Source of the DNA: Paractinoplanes aksuensis
Lineage (GTDB): Bacteria > Actinomycetota > Actinomycetes > Mycobacteriales > Micromonosporaceae
Assembly: GCF_024137025.1 (NCBI RefSeq)
Contig: NZ_JAMYJR010000053.1
Coordinates: 1 to 64,000, forward strand
DNA: 64,000 nucleotides
Direction: 5' to 3'
Positions within the stretch are counted from its first letter, which is position 1, and each line of letters begins with the position of its first letter. Position numbers and translations under genes: made by a program. Below, in pieces: positions 53,561-60,921 of this stretch. The notes beneath the pieces are model-generated. The model was not told where the DNA came from, did no database searches, and saw nothing but the letters and a program-made list of their open reading frames with translations.

Positions 53561-56500
53561 TCAGGAACGGCGATGAGCGCGCGCTACCACCTCGTCCTCT
53601 CGTAACGGACCACCGTCATGGCTCAAACACAGCGGTGCTTGGATCTTTGTAAACGAAGTGCCTTCACCAGCTCCATAAAACATGCCTACGCTCAGGCTGC
53701 TGAGATCCTCCAGCGAGGTGTTCCGCAATTCAGCTGTGTGCTGGGCTGCGGCGATCTGGGCGGGTGCAGTCAGCCGCCCGAAGAATTGGTTGGCCGTGTT
53801 GCCAAAAACCTGGTTGTGGATTCCTTTAGGCGCTTGCGACGCGAGGACGACGCCGAGTCCGTATTTGCGAACCTGACGAATAATTTCGATCGTGCTGTTC
53901 GTACTCGTGTTTGCCCCGACTGCCGGAACAAAATTCTGAGCCTCGTCCATGACCAGCAGACCGCCGAGCCTACCGACGCCCGCCGGATGCGCCTTGAACC
54001 ACGAGAAAAGCGTTGCCTGGAGGCGGGCGACGAAGCGGGTCCCCTCCTCCTTTGAGAGCCCGACGAAGTTGATGACCGAAATTCTGGAGGACATGCCCTC
54101 GGCTGGGGTCAGCAGCATGCCGGGATCAGCGGCGGGGATCGACTCGTCGAACAGGCGGTCGGTCTCCGCCACTGCCTCCAGGGTGTCCGCGATCTGCATG
54201 GCGATGCGCCTCGTGCGGCTGTTGAACAGGCCGTCTGGCGGCTCATTGAGATAATCGACAAAGCCGGTCAGTGTGCGCTCGCCGCTCCTGACGTAGGTGG
54301 CGAGCGCACGCTGCAGAACACCCTGCTGCTGCAACGCCCGAGAGCCGTTCCCTCGGATTCCAGCCTGGGGCCCGAGACTGGCCACGGTAGATGCGATGAG
54401 GCGTTGGAAGTCGTCCTCATCCGTTAGGACCGGTCCGAAATCGGGTAGGGGATGGAAGGAGAGCGGGCGGCCCCGCTTGAGGCCCGGGGTCCATACCAGC
54501 ACCTCGGTTTTCCCGAAGTAGCGCTCCGCTTGCTCCTCCTGCTCCGGCGTCCACCCGTCCGGCGGCTGAGGCCAACGGTCTCCCAGCCGGGCCAGATCGT
54601 CATTTGGATCAAGGACGATGGCCGACACACCACGGAGAGCGCATTGCTCGATGAGCCGCTTCACCAGAACGGTCTTGCCGGAACCCGCAGCGCCTACCAC
54701 TACCGTGTGTTTGGTGAGCTGGCTGGTTGCCACAAGGAATGGAGCACCCCCTCGGGCTTTCACGCCGACTATGATGTCCGCCGGCGCCGTTGCCTCGACT
54801 GATTCCTGGTCAGTTGGTCCGTTGAGGTACTGCCGCAGATCGTCAGCAACGACAGCAAACAGCTCGGTCCGGCTGGACGGTTTCGCGGTGCGCAACCAGG
54901 CTTCCAGCCCCGGTGGTCGCTGGTTGAGCATTGTTCGCAAGGCGGCCAGCGTGCGCAGGTCGCCCCCGCTGATCGGGACCGGCAACCCGCCGCGAGCGAC
55001 GAAATCCTCCCGAATCTCAGTCATCCTCTGACCGCTCGGATAGCCCGTATTACGGAGTAAGGTCAGGCGGCGGGTCGGAAGGCCTTTGGCCAACCCTGCT
55101 TCGGCAACCGCGTCACGAATCCGGTTCTGCGCCGCGATCGGGTTTTCACTTGCGATCCCGCGGAACGACCAATGCGCCTCTCTGTCGGTCCGCTCGGTGA
55201 TTTGATAACGCAGCCGGGCGTGCAGAGCGTGCTTTCCACCGAAGTCCGCGTCGATTGTGAACTTGGCTTGGTCCACCTCTAGTTCATGTATGAGGCTCAG
55301 CAGCCCGGCTTCGAGTAGCGCGGGCATCACGCTGTCCTCGGTCGCTTTGTCGAGCGGTGTCGTAGCGTCTGCTTCGTCCCGTAGCTTGTCGAACAGGTCG
55401 TTGAGAACTTCACTGTCGACCGTGGCCACTGGACGCGTCAGCGCCGGCGATGCAACCCTGTCCTCCAGGGATTCCAGTTCGGTGACCACACCGCTTTGGA
55501 CGCATGTGGCGATATGTTCGGCCACACGAACGAGCAGCCGTCGTGCGGTATATCGAGACGGCACTTCAGCGAAAGCCCTATCGGCGATCGGCCACGTGGC
55601 ATACGGCGGCTCGAACTGCACAGACTCATAAGCCAATCGAAGCCGTCGGCTGACAATCGCGGTGGCGGTCACCTTGTCGGGAATCTCCCCCAGAGCCGGC
55701 AGCACCTCGAAGCGATCCAGAGCGCTTCTCACCACTGCTGCCCGTGAGATCTTCTGCCAGGAATCCTCCTGACACGCGACGATCATCAGCGTGCGACGAG
55801 TTTCCTCTCGCAGATCCATGAGTCCGGACGCGATGTCTCCGCTCATACGCTGCGCGATGCGGCTCTCCCGATTGGCCGGGCTCGCAAGCGAGGTATCTGA
55901 GGCGCGTACAAGGTCGTCAAGCTGGTCGAACGCGAACACCAGCGGTCCGGCGAGAGCGAAGAGGCGCGTCAAGTCACGCAGGAGAAGCTGGGCCGGTCGC
56001 CGTCGACCTGAAAGGCCCCATTCAGCCCGAGTCTCGACAGCGCCGGGGTCGTCGGCCAGATATGCCTTGCCGTGTTCAACGGCATCGCCGTAGGACGCCA
56101 GTAGTGCAAGTGCACGAGCCGTGTCGGCGGCTTCGTTGCCGACCTGCCGGTCCAGGCGCCGGATTCCGTCGACGAACGCATCGACAGCAGCACGCGTCAG
56201 CGTCAGTTCACCCAGAATGGCAGCGCGATGCTGAACATCGATACCGGCGTCCCTTGTCAGCACGCCGAGAAGGTAAAGAAGCTGGTCCTGACCGCCGTCC
56301 TCCTTCCGGTATAAGCTGTCGATCAAGCTTCCGGTAGCACTGGTCCAGAAATCCTGACCGGCCACCAACTTCATGTAGAAAAAGAAGCCTCCCTGCCGCT
56401 GGATCTCTTGCCGGGCCCAGCCCAAGAGGTGGGTCTTGCCGGACCCGCGGTCGCCCTGCAGTACAGAGATCGTCGGAGTGTTCCTTTGGGCCAGCAAGGT

Positions 56501-56638
56501 AATCGACCGGGACAAACGCCTGGACACCGTCGAATGGAGACTTCCCACGTGGTGCGGTTCCAACGATGCCCACACCTCCTCCGAGGTGAGGACCGGGCTG
56601 AGGTTCACCGCGTCGAGGGCTGCGAGCTCCCGGCTCAC
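53561..56638 (-). CDS. dual P-loop ATPase: N-terminal AAA/STAND module plus C-terminal HerA/FtsK-type motor
   Basis: 1025 residues with two separate ATPases. N-terminal: Walker A QGDRGSGKTH (residues 61-70) and Walker B LVFAFDQLDD (233-242), similar in style to the large ATPases of BREX-type systems. C-terminal: Walker A VGAAGSGKTVLVKRL near 650, Walker B GGLLVMDEAQNFVP near 896 and a sensor-like VRKYGLGVVLASQ, as in HerA/FtsK translocases. A hexameric DNA pump is the expected activity. GTG start overlaps the stop of the winged-helix gene (GTGA at 56638). It is the last gene of a four-gene coupled operon with a nuclease. GC is clearly lower than the flanks. Confidence 0.88.
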   Translation of the reverse strand: MSRELAALDAVNLSPVLTSEEVWASLEPHHVGSLHSTVSRRLSRSITLLAQRNTPTISVLQGDRGSGKTHLLGWARQEIQRQGGFFFYMKLVAGQDFWTSATGSLIDSLYRKEDGGQDQLLYLLGVLTRDAGIDVQHRAAILGELTLTRAAVDAFVDGIRRLDRQVGNEAADTARALALLASYGDAVEHGKAYLADDPGAVETRAEWGLSGRRRPAQLLLRDLTRLFALAGPLVFAFDQLDDLVRASDTSLASPANRESRIAQRMSGDIASGLMDLREETRRTLMIVACQEDSWQKISRAAVVRSALDRFEVLPALGEIPDKVTATAIVSRRLRLAYESVQFEPPYATWPIADRAFAEVPSRYTARRLLVRVAEHIATCVQSGVVTELESLEDRVASPALTRPVATVDSEVLNDLFDKLRDEADATTPLDKATEDSVMPALLEAGLLSLIHELEVDQAKFTIDADFGGKHALHARLRYQITERTDREAHWSFRGIASENPIAAQNRIRDAVAEAGLAKGLPTRRLTLLRNTGYPSGQRMTEIREDFVARGGLPVPISGGDLRTLAALRTMLNQRPPGLEAWLRTAKPSSRTELFAVVADDLRQYLNGPTDQESVEATAPADIIVGVKARGGAPFLVATSQLTKHTVVVGAAGSGKTVLVKRLIEQCALRGVSAIVLDPNDDLARLGDRWPQPPDGWTPEQEEQAERYFGKTEVLVWTPGLKRGRPLSFHPLPDFGPVLTDEDDFQRLIASTVASLGPQAGIRGNGSRALQQQGVLQRALATYVRSGERTLTGFVDYLNEPPDGLFNSRTRRIAMQIADTLEAVAETDRLFDESIPAADPGMLLTPAEGMSSRISVINFVGLSKEEGTRFVARLQATLFSWFKAHPAGVGRLGGLLVMDEAQNFVPAVGANTSTNSTIEIIRQVRKYGLGVVLASQAPKGIHNQVFGNTANQFFGRLTAPAQIAAAQHTAELRNTSLEDLSSLSVGMFYGAGEGTSFTKIQAPLCLSHDGGPLREDEVVARAHRRS

Positions 56639-57270
56639 ACCGACGCCTCGATCTTGAGCAGGTGCCTGTCCTCTCCTCCGATCCTCAGCGATGCCTCCCG
56701 GTCAGCATCGGTGAGGGCAGACTGGTTGAGCTCACTCTTCAAATGGAATCCGGGGAGCTCGATCATCCGGTCGAGCGCGGCATCCACCATGTCGCGTGAC
56801 GTGGTGCCAAGCCTCGGCCGCAGCGACGACAGCTTCACCCACGATCCGGGACGCCGAGACGTGAGGTCGGCGTACGCTGCGTAGATCCACGTCTCGAGGT
56901 CGGGCTGAAAGAATTCCTTGAACTTCGTGCCGGACCGCGCCAAATGCTGCCCGACTCTTTCCAGAACCGCGTAGAGGACACCAGAAGGGAACTTCGCATC
57001 ATCCGGTGGTCCATCGAGTAAGGCCGACTCACACCAAGCTAATCCTCGGGCCGACAGCGAGTAGGTGTGTATTCCGCGCTCGCTGACCTTAATGATGGGC
57101 TCATCCTCGGAAGGGCTCGAACGGAGAATCTTACTGTCGGCGCAGCGCCGGACGTCTGCCGTGATTTCCAAGCCGGCAAGCTCCCGGAGCTCCCTGTTCG
57201 TTATTGGGCGAGCCACCACCATCAGTGCAAACATCGAAGCTTGCCACCGGGTTGTCGACACATTGGTCAC
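56635..57270 (-). CDS. winged-helix protein of the HerA-nuclease operon
   Basis: 211 residues, predicted as two winged-helix-like parts (TNRELRELAGLEITADVRRCAD in the first 45 residues; LRPRLGTTSRDMVDAALDRM near 155-175). It has no signal peptide or known enzyme motif. It may bind DNA ends or act as an adaptor between the ATPase and the other proteins, or regulate the operon. GTG 57270 has AGGAGG upstream. It lies 27 bases after the unknown gene and overlaps the ATPase start. Confidence 0.75.
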   Translation of the reverse strand: MTNVSTTRWQASMFALMVVARPITNRELRELAGLEITADVRRCADSKILRSSPSEDEPIIKVSERGIHTYSLSARGLAWCESALLDGPPDDAKFPSGVLYAVLERVGQHLARSGTKFKEFFQPDLETWIYAAYADLTSRRPGSWVKLSSLRPRLGTTSRDMVDAALDRMIELPGFHLKSELNQSALTDADREASLRIGGEDRHLLKIEASV

Positions 57271-57297
57271 GGCAATCCTCCTGGGTTTTACGTCAGC

Positions 57298-58404
57298 TCA
57301 GAGCCCGGCGAGTTGGCCGGGCACCAGTTCCACTCGACCGGCGGGGCTGGTCAGCTCACCGGAGACAGTGATCTCGCGATGCTCGCGATGTGCCGTGATG
57401 GCTCGGTCGTACGATGCTTGGTCAGCAAGACGAACCCAGACCGCACGTCGTGCGCTCTCCACTCGGTCGGTCCGAAGCCAGCCACGTACCTTGATCCGCC
57501 ACCGGTCCGCACCGACGACATCGTCGTGCAAGCTCTCGACGATCCCGGTCACCGTCGCCGCACCTGAAGCGACCAACTTCCGCAGCCGACTTCCAGCCGC
57601 CTGTAGTAACGGACCAGATCCAGCCGGAAACGGCAGGACATGGCTCGACGCCCCGTCCAGCGGCATGGCACGAGCCCAGCGGAATGTGATTTCGAAGGCG
57701 TCCCTGCGCTCGGTTCCGCACAGATCGCCGAGCGCCTGGCACAGATTCGCGGAAACACCCTCAGTCACCGCGTCGTCGAAGGCGGCCGGAGTTCCGGTCA
57801 TCACGGCGGATTGAGCCGCCGCTGCTGACTCCAGCATCTGGGTGAGAACGGCTCGGCCGGTCAACTCCTCGTCGACGGCTGTCCGCGCCACGGCGCCGAT
57901 GGCCAAGCGCATCTCCACGATATAGCTGCCCGCACGGGTTGGCCCTAATTCCGCCGCCCGCAGTATCCCGCGCAGCCCCGGCGCGGCTCTTCCTACGAAC
58001 GCGTAGTGCGGTCCTTCGGCGATCGTCCGGGTGGCGACGTCCAGTAGGTTGCGAATGGCGTTGATAGTCTGGACGCCGCCGAGCAACGAGGCATAGCCAG
58101 GATCGTGACCGGAAGCGAATGCCTTGAAGTACTGCCTGTCCAGCTTCGGTAACGCGATCTCGGAAGCGATGTCCGTCGCAGGCCGGTCCTCGAGATCAGC
58201 CAGGCAGCGGAGAATTTCCCGGATTCGCCGCGCGGAATCACCCATGATGTCGCTGGCCGGGACCAGAACTTCGAAGTTGTCCGGGTGGTGCCACATCGTC
58301 GCTCGCTCGCCGCCGGGACCGTTCCTGAGCGCGGGTTGCCAGCCTGTGTTGGTCAAATAGTCGACGATATCGGCCACCTTTAGAACATCCATCGTGGCGG
58401 TCAC
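57298..58404 (-). CDS. unknown protein of the HerA-nuclease operon
   Basis: 368 residues. A small N-terminal domain (residues 8-85: VVDYL-like start, MWHHPDNFEVLVPASD, then RRIREILRCLADLEDRPATDIASEI) resembles the compact HicA-like/dsRBD-fold domains seen next to defence ATPases; the similarity is from memory. The remaining 280 residues are mixed alpha/beta with a beta-rich C-terminus (WRIKVRGWLRTDRVESARRAV, ITVSGELTSPAGRVELVPG). No catalytic motif is seen. GTG start overlaps the nuclease stop. Probably a structural or recognition subunit. Confidence 0.8.
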   Translation of the reverse strand: MTATMDVLKVADIVDYLTNTGWQPALRNGPGGERATMWHHPDNFEVLVPASDIMGDSARRIREILRCLADLEDRPATDIASEIALPKLDRQYFKAFASGHDPGYASLLGGVQTINAIRNLLDVATRTIAEGPHYAFVGRAAPGLRGILRAAELGPTRAGSYIVEMRLAIGAVARTAVDEELTGRAVLTQMLESAAAAQSAVMTGTPAAFDDAVTEGVSANLCQALGDLCGTERRDAFEITFRWARAMPLDGASSHVLPFPAGSGPLLQAAGSRLRKLVASGAATVTGIVESLHDDVVGADRWRIKVRGWLRTDRVESARRAVWVRLADQASYDRAITAHREHREITVSGELTSPAGRVELVPGQLAGL

Positions 58405-58904
58405 CGGTCCAGCTCCGTCTCCGTGAGCCGGCGGAGGGTAGCTGCCGTCAAGACGTTGGCGATCGGAACCCGCACCGCGCGTTTGCGGGAACGGTCGGGC
58501 GCAGCGATCGGTTGCTCGGTCTCAAGTGACAGGTAGTAGCCGAGATGCCGGAGCAGAACACCGTCAGTAAGCGACGAAGCGTACAGGTGACTTTCGGCCG
58601 GCACTGTGATCAGGAAGAGGTAACGACGTATGGAGAAGTTCGGCCCGGCTAGCCTGTTGAACTGCCACTCGTCAAGGCCCCGATAGTTCAGATAGCCCGC
58701 GGATACCGACGGCGTCGACCAGGTTTTTACCTGCGCCTCGATGGTGGGCGAGTATGTCCGAGCACGACCTGCGACGGACTTCAACCCGAGATCGACGCCG
58801 TCGGCATCGATGTCTTCTTTGGTGACAACAAGCCCGGCTGCCGAGGCCAAGACGCGTACGTAGTCTTCACCGAACTTGCCCTGGTGCTGTCTCGCGTCGA
58901 GCAT
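58401..58904 (-). CDS. DUF4365-like PD-(D/E)xK nuclease, first gene of the operon
   Basis: 167 residues. The early helix GKFGEDYVRVLASAAGLVV is followed by DADGVDLGL (Asp38) and IEAQVKTW (Glu56, Gln58, Lys60), which together read as a PD-(D/E)xK nuclease core of the DUF4365 type. ATG 58904 has GGAGGG eight bases upstream; a TTG at 58907 is possible. The four genes from here to the ATPase overlap or nearly touch, so they are one unit. A DNA-cleaving role in defence is the inference. Confidence 0.8.
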   Translation of the reverse strand: MLDARQHQGKFGEDYVRVLASAAGLVVTKEDIDADGVDLGLKSVAGRARTYSPTIEAQVKTWSTPSVSAGYLNYRGLDEWQFNRLAGPNFSIRRYLFLITVPAESHLYASSLTDGVLLRHLGYYLSLETEQPIAAPDRSRKRAVRVPIANVLTAATLRRLTETELDR

Positions 58905-59138: not shown

Positions 59139-59990
59139 GTGGCCGAGCCGGTACGGGCACGGCGGTTGACTCAGGACGAGGGCCGCAGGCTGCAGCAACT
59201 GGTGCGCCGTGGGAAGCATGATTCGGTCCGTGTCCGCCGGGCGTTGATCATCATGGCGTCGGCGTCCGGGACGCCGGTGCCCTCGATCGCCAGGCTGGTT
59301 GCGGCGCATGAAGACACGGTGCGCGACGTGATCCACCTGTTCAACGAGATCGGTCTTCGCGCGTTGGACCCTCAGTGGGCGGGAGGCCGTCCCCGCCGGA
59401 TCAATGACGACGATGAAGCGTTCATCGTCGCGACGGCCACCACGCGCCCGAGCAAACTCGGTCGCCCGTTCACCCGCTGGAGCCTGCGCAAACTCGCCGA
59501 CTACCTGGCCACCAACCCGGTGCGCCAGGTGACCGTCGGACGGGAACGGCTGCCGGCAGCTGCTGCGCGACAACGACGTCAGCTGGCAGCGCACCCGGAC
59601 CTGGAAAGAATCCAAGGACCCCGACTTCGACGCCAAGCTGGACCGCATCGAAGAGGTGACAACCCGGTTCCCGCAGCGGTGTTTCGCGTTCGACCAGTTC
59701 GGGCCGCTGTCGATCCGCCCGCACCACGGTGGCGGCTGGGCGCCGCGAACGCATCCCGACCGGTTGCCGGCGACCTACAAACGCACCCATGGGATCCGCT
59801 ACTTCCACGGCTGCTACAGCTTCGCCGACGACCAGCTCTGGGGTGTGATGCGCTGCCGCAAAGGCGGCGACCACACCCTGTCCGCGCTCAAATCCATCCG
59901 CAAGGCCCGGCCGGACGGCGCCCCGATCTACGTCATCCTCGACAACCTGTCAGCGAACAAGACGCCGACGATCCGGGCCTGGGCGGCCCG
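59139..59990 (+). pseudogene. IS630-type transposase, frameshifted and 3'-truncated
   Basis: Frame one gives an intact N-terminal HTH half (ARRLTQDEGRRLQQLVRRGK, PVPSIARLVAAHEDTVRDVI, PLTRWSLRKLADYL-like). Near 59552 one extra base shifts the frame; the family sequence then continues as LLRDNDVSWQRTRTWKESKD, FAFDQFGPLSIRP and IYVILDNLSANKTPTIRAWAAR, which includes the second DDE-type Asp. Sequence after about 59990 is no longer transposase, so the last 100 residues with the final Glu are lost. No poly-A slippery site is seen, so programmed frameshifting is unlikely. Confidence 0.82.
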
Positions 59991-60675
59991 GGCTGAGCAG
60001 GCGGCGCGACACGGTTCGGCACTCGGGTGGCAGGTCTCGGGGCTGGATGGCGCCGCTTCGGCAGTGTTGGACGATGTTGCGCAGCACCTGCCACAACTGT
60101 TCGATGTTGCCGGGCCAGCTCGATCTGCTCAGCATCTGCAGGGCCGGTGGGGAGCACTCCAGGCGGCCGTCCGGCACCAGTTTGGCGAGGAAGAACGGGA
60201 CCAGCGCCTGCACGTCCTCGGGGTGGTAGCGCAGCGGCGGCAGTTCGACCGTGCTGGCGAAGAAGCGCAGCAGACCCGCGAGCTCCCCACTGTCGTGGCG
60301 CGGGCTGAGGGTGAGCGCGACCCACGGCGCGGCCGAAGCGGTGCGGGCCTGTTCGAGCAGGCGGCACAGGGTTTCCAGCAGGGCCCCGGCCGCGCGGTCG
60401 GCGTGCTGGATGAGCAGGGCGCCGCCGGATCCCTGCAGCTCGCGACGCACGTCGTCGAGCCAGGCGCGGCCGGGGGTGGCCGCGTCGGCCACGGCGAAGT
60501 GCGCGCCGGGGTGGTCGTGCTGGTGGATGGCGCGCAGCACGGCCAGTTTCCCCACGCCGGCCTCGCCTTCGAGCACGAGCCACTCGCCGGATGCGTACGC
60601 CGCCTTCGCCTGCAGGCAGCCGCGTAGCCACAGGCCGCCCGAGCCGGCCAGGCCGGGCAGGAAGGCGCGCGGCTC
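59990..60675 (-). pseudogene. core fragment of a sigma-54-type activator (AcoR/MimR-like)
   Basis: About 225 codons read LWLRGCLQAKAAYASGEWLV, GEAGVGKLAVLRAIHQ (degenerate Walker A), TVELPPLRYHPEDVQALVPF, WPGNIEQLWQVLRNIV and DLPPECRTVSRRLLSP. That is the middle of the actinobacterial NtrC-like activators. The N-terminal GAF part and the C-terminal Fis-type HTH are missing. The break after RRLLSP coincides with the break in the transposase, so one rearrangement cut both. Such activators sit divergent from mim/prm monooxygenase genes, matching the stub at 60991. Confidence 0.78.
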
Positions 60676-60921
60676 ATGGACCCGGCGCCCGAGACGTACA
60701 ACCCGTGGACCGTCGTCAATGTGGTCTTCCACCACTTGGCTGCTCAGGGCCTGCATCCCGTGCTGGGCGGCGCCGACCCAGGTGGCCCGGCGGCTGACCT
60801 GCTGCGCGCGTTCGGCATCGAACCGGCGGCCGAGGGCGACCGCCAGGTCGGGGAAAGAGTCAAAAAGCACCTGGCCGACATCCGCGCCGCGGTTTTCGAA
60901 GAACGCCCTGACTCAATGTGA
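60676..60921 (+). CDS. conserved small protein of monooxygenase loci
   Basis: 81 residues: MDPAPETYNPWTVVNVVFHH, LHPVLGGADPG, then a helical end. I recognise this as a conserved actinobacterial hypothetical that lies just before prmA/mimA-type genes; that recollection could not be checked here. It is complete and precedes the monooxygenase stub by 69 bases. It may be the only intact gene left of the original locus. Soluble, function unknown. Confidence 0.65.
   Translation: MDPAPETYNPWTVVNVVFHHLAAQGLHPVLGGADPGGPAADLLRAFGIEPAAEGDRQVGERVKKHLADIRAAVFEERPDSM

Follow-up and report, generated by a model that had tools for sequence, protein, structure and literature searches.

We identified, in a 64,000-nucleotide stretch of the Paractinoplanes aksuensis genome (contig NZ_JAMYJR010000053.1, positions 1 to 64,000; hereafter the window), an operon of four minus-strand genes, termed A, B, C and D, that fairly likely acts against invading DNA. 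The last two genes, encoding a putative winged-helix protein (C) and a dual P-loop ATPase with a HerA-type motor domain (D), form a core of their own and the wider unit of conservation. The first two, encoding a predicted DUF4365 nuclease (A) and a protein with a predicted oligonucleotide/oligosaccharide-binding (OB) fold (B), are one of six alternative partner modules of this core. The first-pass annotation of this DNA, which took the operon as the unit of the system, had recognised the coupling of a nuclease with a HerA motor, but missed the wider core and the exchangeable nature of the DUF4365 pair.

The core, its partner modules and the four-gene set

We examined 157 C-D loci in two sets that share eight identical pairs. 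The named set was drawn from a profile scan of named genomes with D (the best 80 of 480 relatives), and the genus set consists of 76 loci retrieved by a match to D, one of them from another family of the order, together with the window. C adjoins D at 156 of the 157 loci. Among the called pairs, 54 of 78 and 51 of 75 have a 4-base overlap between the stop and start of the two genes, a recurrence beyond chance. At least one of six partner classes adjoins the core in 141 loci.

The effector modules beside this core are exchanged. Besides A-B, the partner classes, identified from one or two representatives each, are a DUF559 nuclease (1.1e-10); an AbiU/AIPR protein (AIPR 1.7e-40; PADLOC AbiU 5e-113); a trypsin-WD40 protein with Trypco1 (Trypsin_2 4.3e-14 with WD40 repeats; Trypco1 1.4e-17); a TIR protein with a MinD-like ATPase (TIR_2 3.6e-12; ParA/MinD-type ATPase); and P625, a P-loop protein without a confident family. 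DUF559 is the most frequent partner both in the named set (37 loci, followed by TIR with MinD-like ATPase in 14, A-B in 13, P625 in 6, trypsin with or without Trypco1 in 5, and none in 5) and in the genus set (23 loci, followed by trypsin in 15, P625 in 14, AbiU in 11, DUF559 with P625 in 2, A-B in 1, and none in 11). Partners mostly lie directly upstream of C on the same strand; AbiU is placed downstream of D, and the trypsin genes lie on the opposite strand, pointing away from C. In controls, partner profiles other than those of A and B matched none of the 261 genes at 20 control loci, and matches to the partner profiles were seen in 3 of 496 distal genes at the named loci. Gene calls missed genes at L088-L090 and parts of L118 and L154, and were corrected for C-D loci only.

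Two loci (L139 and L143) carry both P625 and DUF559, overlapping, upstream of C-D, suggesting that partner modules can combine. The DUF559-C-D loci L010, L023, L035 and L036 and their relatives have in common a divergently oriented series of small genes (about 103, 230, 104, 124 and 118 residues), which are WXG100/ESX-like by eye.

More than one examined C-D locus is present in 17 of 56 genomes, and all partner classes differ in each of the 12 genomes in which two or more are known (12/12; shuffled p 0.006). The window genome itself contains three, associated with A-B (described here), DUF559 (L010, on G000:C27) and P625 (L011, on C6). As each partner class mostly corresponds to a separate, old lineage of D, the differing classes within a genome do not prove a division of labour.

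A, B, C and D were found together, in one order and on one strand, at 13 of the 80 named loci, in Streptomyces (4), Kribbella (3), Amycolatopsis (2), Kibdelosporangium, Umezawaea, Rhodococcus rhodnii and a Streptosporangiales metagenome-assembled genome; a search for the same four genes elsewhere, proposed when the operon was first noticed, has thus recovered them. The D protein of the window shares 60-62% identity with the four from Streptomyces, and 39-45% with the other 63 aligned rows. In a tree of B, which carries a long-branch warning, the proteins from the 14 four-gene loci resolve as one clade (Shimodaira-Hasegawa-like approximate likelihood ratio test 99) apart from 24 stand-alone rows. 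Eight Streptomyces-like 'stand-alone' B loci were viewed within flanks of about 1.5 kb. The pairwise distances of the four genes correlate with one another (r 0.73-0.93, permutation p 0.0001) across the 11 loci left once three near-duplicates of the 14 were dropped, a correlation that would also be expected from a shared species history. The four genes are co-inherited, and we consider that they form one conserved unit, as judged from these comparisons.

The same data bear on a different explanation, in which a stand-alone A-B pair and a C-D system are independent neighbours joined by a chance insertion. The two modules do occur apart: C-D lacks A-B in 143 of the 157 loci, a 27-base gap parts the modules in the window, and among 20 genus loci retrieved by a match to B, A adjoins B in 15, and C or D in none. 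Only one of the 77 genus loci, the window itself, combines C-D with A-B, corresponding to one of 67 genus genomes among the loci examined. However, the 13 further four-gene loci come from several families and all have the same gene order, and the single B clade and the correlated gene distances appear largely to refute a chance juxtaposition, which we regard as very improbable. A contig scan for B only, using single-sequence patterns, found no relative; these patterns were too specific, as the profile scan with D found A-B-C-D loci.

The four-gene loci L199 (in a record titled Kibdelosporangium aridum) and L214 (Rhodococcus rhodnii) are closely similar, which would reflect either a recent transfer or a mislabelled record. 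At four of the 20 stand-alone A-B loci (L073, L074, L075 and L076), a helicase-like gene (955-962 residues; SNF2-like by eye) lies 124-152 bases past B on the same strand, and could be another motor for stand-alone A-B. A second, more distant match to PDC-M02B, the PADLOC model that B itself matches, was identified in the window genome (L051/L089, G000:C26:176278-177366), away from C-D. Overall, A-B-C-D is a conserved gene set of soil bacteria that probably moves horizontally.

The operon and its products

The four open reading frames (ORFs) of the operon were verified on the minus strand of the window, in the order A-B-C-D. A (58401..58904) and B (57298..58404) meet in a GTGA overlap, as do C (56635..57270) and D (53561..56638), and the 27 bases between the two modules (57271..57297) contain an AGGAGG ribosome-binding site for C. 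The most likely start of A is the ATG at 58904, as it stands behind GGAGG; the mechanical ORF opens one codon earlier, at a TTG. The guanine-plus-cytosine (GC) content of C-D is 62%, compared to 71% in the flanks, and in 1-kb steps the operon (61-65%) is the lowest stretch of the window, the rest of which lies mostly at 65-75%. The first-pass annotation is borne out in each of these respects, from the four ORFs, the two overlaps and the gap to the reduced GC.

Directly upstream of the operon lies a broken transposase-like gene (about 59139-59993), with HTH_29 and HTH_32 matches and its remainder in another frame. This remnant had been placed after the operon; since the operon is on the minus strand, it precedes it. 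A minus-strand ORF with an AAA+ lid domain (59953-60870) adjoins the broken transposase. Base composition was considered as a general sign of mobility and rejected: the C-D core of the window is 8.5 GC points under its flanks, but the mean difference over 150 loci is just -0.7 points (standard deviation 2.7).

A (167 residues) is a predicted nuclease of the DUF4365, or DREN, type, with matches to PF14280 in Pfam (4.7e-9) and to PDC-M02A in PADLOC (4.1e-77). In the alignment of four-gene loci, its motif consists of G36 and D38 (GxD) followed by E56-x-Q58-x-K60; E56 and K60 were correctly numbered before, when counted from the ATG at 58904. G36, D38 and Q58 are invariant in 12 of 12 aligned four-gene loci and K60 is kept in 10 of them, with the lysine retained in 34 of 36 rows of a wider alignment and in 22 of 22 stand-alone A rows. 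From the GxD and QxK motif alone, A would be an active restriction endonuclease (REase), in agreement with its earlier reading as a DUF4365-like PD-(D/E)xK nuclease. DUF4365 is named DREN, for DNA and RNA effector nuclease, in SPARDA (accessible text of PMC12205087).

B (368 residues) matches PADLOC PDC-M02B at 6.1e-111, and has no match in Pfam or among PDB sequences up to an E value of 1. A structure model built with 14 sequences (mean predicted local distance difference test, pLDDT, 82.4) has an N-terminal alpha/beta part and an OB fold at about residues 280-368, which resembles SilF (Z 10.5, root-mean-square deviation [rmsd] 2.0, 75 aligned), PriB (Z 8.3, rmsd 2.9, 77 aligned) and chains of SSB and RPA (Z about 6.7-7.8). 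Residues 1-277 were barely covered by the fold comparison, with one weak row (1whz, Z 7.7) for residues 2-83. B had earlier been described as a protein lacking any known motif.

C (211 residues), the smaller protein of the core, is probably a tandem winged helix, as an alignment of 35 sequences contains two short conserved blocks resembling winged helices. The window protein has no Pfam match at an E value of 1, and one of two homologues searched gave weak matches to MCM4_WHD (0.045) and DUF6293_C (0.086). The winged-helix assignment made earlier is accordingly kept here as a tentative one. A match of the C profile to calmodulin (about 5e-6 to 9e-5, among the best 60 of 188 PDB sequences) was rejected as chance, as it spans positions 57-172 or so, including the variable linker of C, and no EF-hand motif was seen.

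In D (1025 residues), AAA_16 occupies the N-terminal part and DUF87/HerA the C-terminal part, the P-loops of both being intact and invariant, as had been proposed for an AAA/STAND P-loop and a HerA motor within a single chain. The N-terminal, STAND-like ATPase (55445..56635) has an invariant Walker A motif (GxxGxGKTH) and DQxD, and AAA_16 was found in 32 of 32 D N-terminal halves. All 68 aligned D sequences keep the Walker A motif of each half, together with DQxD (first half) and MDEAQ (second half), save for one or two variable places; the two Walker A lysines of the window protein are residues 68 and 655. The HerA/FtsK-type motor domain (53561..54787) matches DUF87 at 1.8e-8, above the family cut-off; an ORC-CDC6-like match of the N-terminal half (8.1e-5) falls under the family cut-off, and a PDB profile search was unspecific.

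In a structure model of D built with 68 sequences (mean pLDDT 88.5), the VIA fold comparison, which covers residues 483-1018 well and the N-terminal half barely, placed the motor closest to the DndH C-domain (7es4; Z 28.7, rmsd 4.1, 326 aligned), tied with Sulfolobus HerA (4d2i; Z 28.3, rmsd 3.8, 321 aligned). Most HerA rows align D from residue 615-619 onward with the chain from residue 110-152 or so onward, leaving the N-terminal (HAS-barrel) domain of HerA uncovered, and a few begin at D residue 290 or 482-483. The middle domain of D (54812..55444), with a helix-strand-strand-strand-helix-strand order in the model, was assigned to no family: profile searches found no significant Pfam or PDB family, and profile comparisons with A and DUF559 gave a probability under 1%. 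From its strand order in the model, it might be an inactive REase.

Relation to known systems

The joining of an Orc/CDC6-type ATPase, a HerA/FtsK motor, a winged helix-turn-helix (wHTH) and a nuclease is a described theme, that of the HerA-FtsK capture systems of the Orc/CDC6 class, which have been proposed to intercept invading DNA (main text of PMC10853773) and were taken up again in the accessible text of PMC12839542. As described in the former, these systems are like A-B-C-D in bringing together an Orc/CDC6-type ATPase, a HerA/FtsK motor, a wHTH and a nuclease in one neighbourhood, with domains combined in single or several chains. They require an inactive REase between the ATPase core and its wHTH, whereas the middle domain of D has no significant REase match. 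We identified the HerA/FtsK motor in D and the active-REase motif in A; with these two, and with Orc/CDC6, the inactive REase and the wHTH unconfirmed, the locus would work like a HerA-FtsK capture system and may belong to this group. DUF4365, DUF559, AIPR and trypsin are absent from the main text of PMC10853773, and an exchange of six effectors on C-D is absent from its HerA-FtsK section. We found no description of the exchangeable-effector C-D arrangement in the main texts of the accessible literature, and an earlier description is possible.

Among catalogued systems, A and B match the A and B models of the PADLOC candidate PDC-M02 strongly and side by side; A-B without C-D is, however, frequent. 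No PDC-M02 model was found for D among the best 25 of its 29 families, and C gave one weak match, to PDC-M02A (E 0.0044). Neither M02C nor M02D came up as a model name, the models adjacent in number being M02B again (PDLC04336) and M01B (PDLC04272). PDC-M02 was not mentioned in the literature searched, in which DUF4365, HerA and defence were mentioned together in the SPARDA literature only, and HerA and DUF559 together in two papers, once each. The first-pass annotation could name no system for this operon; A and B were already part of a PADLOC candidate.

SIR2-HerA (Nezha) and DUF4297-HerA also combine a HerA motor with a separate effector enzyme, and the motor of D matches the HerA chains of both antiphage complexes. 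Their effector families differ from those found here, where A belongs to DUF4365 and neither B nor C matches a Pfam family at an E value of 1. The solved HerA chains of these systems are shorter (about 480-700 residues) and lack the N-terminal AAA/STAND half, and we know of no C-like partner for them.

Among the VIA matches of the D motor, the DndH C-domain of DndFGH ranks first; D matches DndH in PADLOC at only 5.8e-4, and neither DndF nor DndG is among the PADLOC families listed for the four proteins (the best 25 of 32 for B and 25 of 29 for D; flanking genes not scanned). PglZ and BrxC of BREX are likewise missing from the families listed for these proteins (for B and D the best 25 in PADLOC; flanking genes not scanned). 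In PADLOC, D matches mad8 of MADS best (3.2e-22), over the motor only (residues 624-992), and no other MADS gene is among the matches listed for A, B, C and D. Hachiman and AVAST acquire nuclease-protease pairs, indicating a recurrent uptake of effectors by unrelated immune cores (accessible text of PMC12799240); the trypsin-like partner is alike, whereas the core (HerA with a STAND-like ATPase, and C) and the partner families differ. In the accessible text of PMC3506569, AbiU1/AIPR is an abortive-infection family, and HerA and AIPR are named apart. The kinds of parts, and a catalogued but unnamed A-B pair, were already known, and the new element would be a core with exchangeable effectors, for which there is good comparative evidence.

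Proposed function and alternatives

We propose, as a fairly likely explanation, that A-B-C-D is a system against invaders (phage or conjugative DNA), with C-D as its motor core and A-B as its effector module. A defence role is probable from the context, as the first-pass annotation had supposed: the partner modules are of defence type, the motor fold of D is that of DndH-C and HerA, including the antiphage complexes, A and B are PADLOC defence candidates, and the rarity of A-B-C-D in the genus and its low GC indicate an accessory set.

By analogy with the HerA and STAND families, D would form a hexameric ring, the HerA domain of which would travel along double-stranded DNA, and its N-terminal STAND/Orc-like ATPase would serve as a switch or loader. 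C would anchor the complex, either to DNA or to a trigger specific to the invader. Upon activation, DNA would be passed to A, a PD-(D/E)xK nuclease of the QxK type; B would be an adaptor with an OB fold, and may bind single strands or bring A into position. The DNA of the invader, or of the infected cell, would thereby be cut. The trigger, the substrate and a protection against phage are likewise inferred from those two families.

Several observations weigh against this proposal. K60 of A has been lost in two of the 12 aligned four-gene loci (G in L204 and R in L208, which are also the exceptions in the wider alignment), in which A would be decayed or non-catalytic. B is without known function, and DNA binding by C is unconfirmed, its sequence support as a winged-helix protein being weak. 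None of the six partners is present at 16 of the 157 C-D loci. On a tree of 144 D sequences (FastTree, with long-branch warnings; the 157 loci minus 3 with D of 900 residues or fewer and 10 near-duplicates), the partner labels require 16 changes, against a minimum of 7 and a mean of 80 after shuffling. TIR-MinD and trypsin each occupy a single branch, and A-B is found at three positions. The partner classes therefore track the D tree closely, indicating that partners are passed on over long periods and that their exchange is old and rare. The links to mobile elements are modest, since D was identified in just 3 of 72,556 plasmid records (E 1e-30) and not in the phage records or viral contigs searched. 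Finally, 55 of the 67 genus genomes contain D, a frequency that would also be compatible with a housekeeping role.

The last point favours a function in chromosome maintenance or repair, in which C-D would be a HerA-like end-processing or segregation motor, with nuclease partners acting, as NurA does, on the DNA breaks of the cell itself; the top Foldseek match of D is HerA-NurA of Thermococcus. However, the occurrence of D is patchy: it is missing from 12 of the 67 genus genomes and, at E 1e-50, from 390 of 396 phylum genomes, an absence that is overstated as the phylum draw scored two candidates per genome, so that D is present in at least six, the window genome included. TIR, AbiU/AIPR and trypsin-Trypco1 are not known repair enzymes, the multiple C-D loci of single genomes have different partners wherever two are known, and A-B-C-D is rare in the genus and of atypical base composition here. 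We consequently consider a maintenance role unlikely.

We attach the least credence of all to C-D being part of the transfer or exclusion machinery of a mobile element. The motor of D matches the VirB4 and TrwB coupling proteins in the VIA comparison, and two C-D loci lie on plasmid-labelled records, one of which holds ribosomal protein genes and is maybe chromosomal; the scarcity of plasmid records and the lack of phage or viral-contig matches noted above speak against it, in an analysis that clustered the neighbouring genes and made no search aimed at relaxase or mating genes. Outside the actinobacteria, a Methylobacterium megaplasmid carries DUF559-C-D. A plasmid-labelled record of Tsukamurella tyrosinosolvens (L245 3523-9243) has DUF559-C-D, a PIN/VapB pair and further genes between rplN and rpsQ, and may be chromosomal.

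Abortive infection is a sub-case of defence, so that its likelihood overlaps with that of the proposal above. C-D would here sense infection and unleash an effector causing death or arrest of the cell (a nuclease, NADase-type TIR, AbiU or protease), which is a realistic possibility, if somewhat short of an even one. Partners of these kinds act as suicide effectors elsewhere, as with DREN in SPARDA (accessible text of PMC12205087) and the AbiU1/AIPR family (accessible text of PMC3506569), and the N-terminal ATPase of D is STAND-like. In contrast, the DNA-translocating type of the motor suggests a direct handling of DNA, as in the anti-invader proposal.

More broadly, we find the arguments evenly balanced as to whether C-D serves actinobacteria as a general plug-in immune chassis (at least one copy being on an alphaproteobacterial megaplasmid), which would recognise invading DNA and drive any of at least six unrelated adjoining effector modules, with several such devices per genome. 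If one sensing and translocating core does drive unrelated enzymes, recognition would be separated from execution. DUF559, a domain that is widespread but functionally uncharacterised, would, like PDC-M02, be linked to a HerA motor, and AbiU/AIPR and Trypco1 would gain a common partner.

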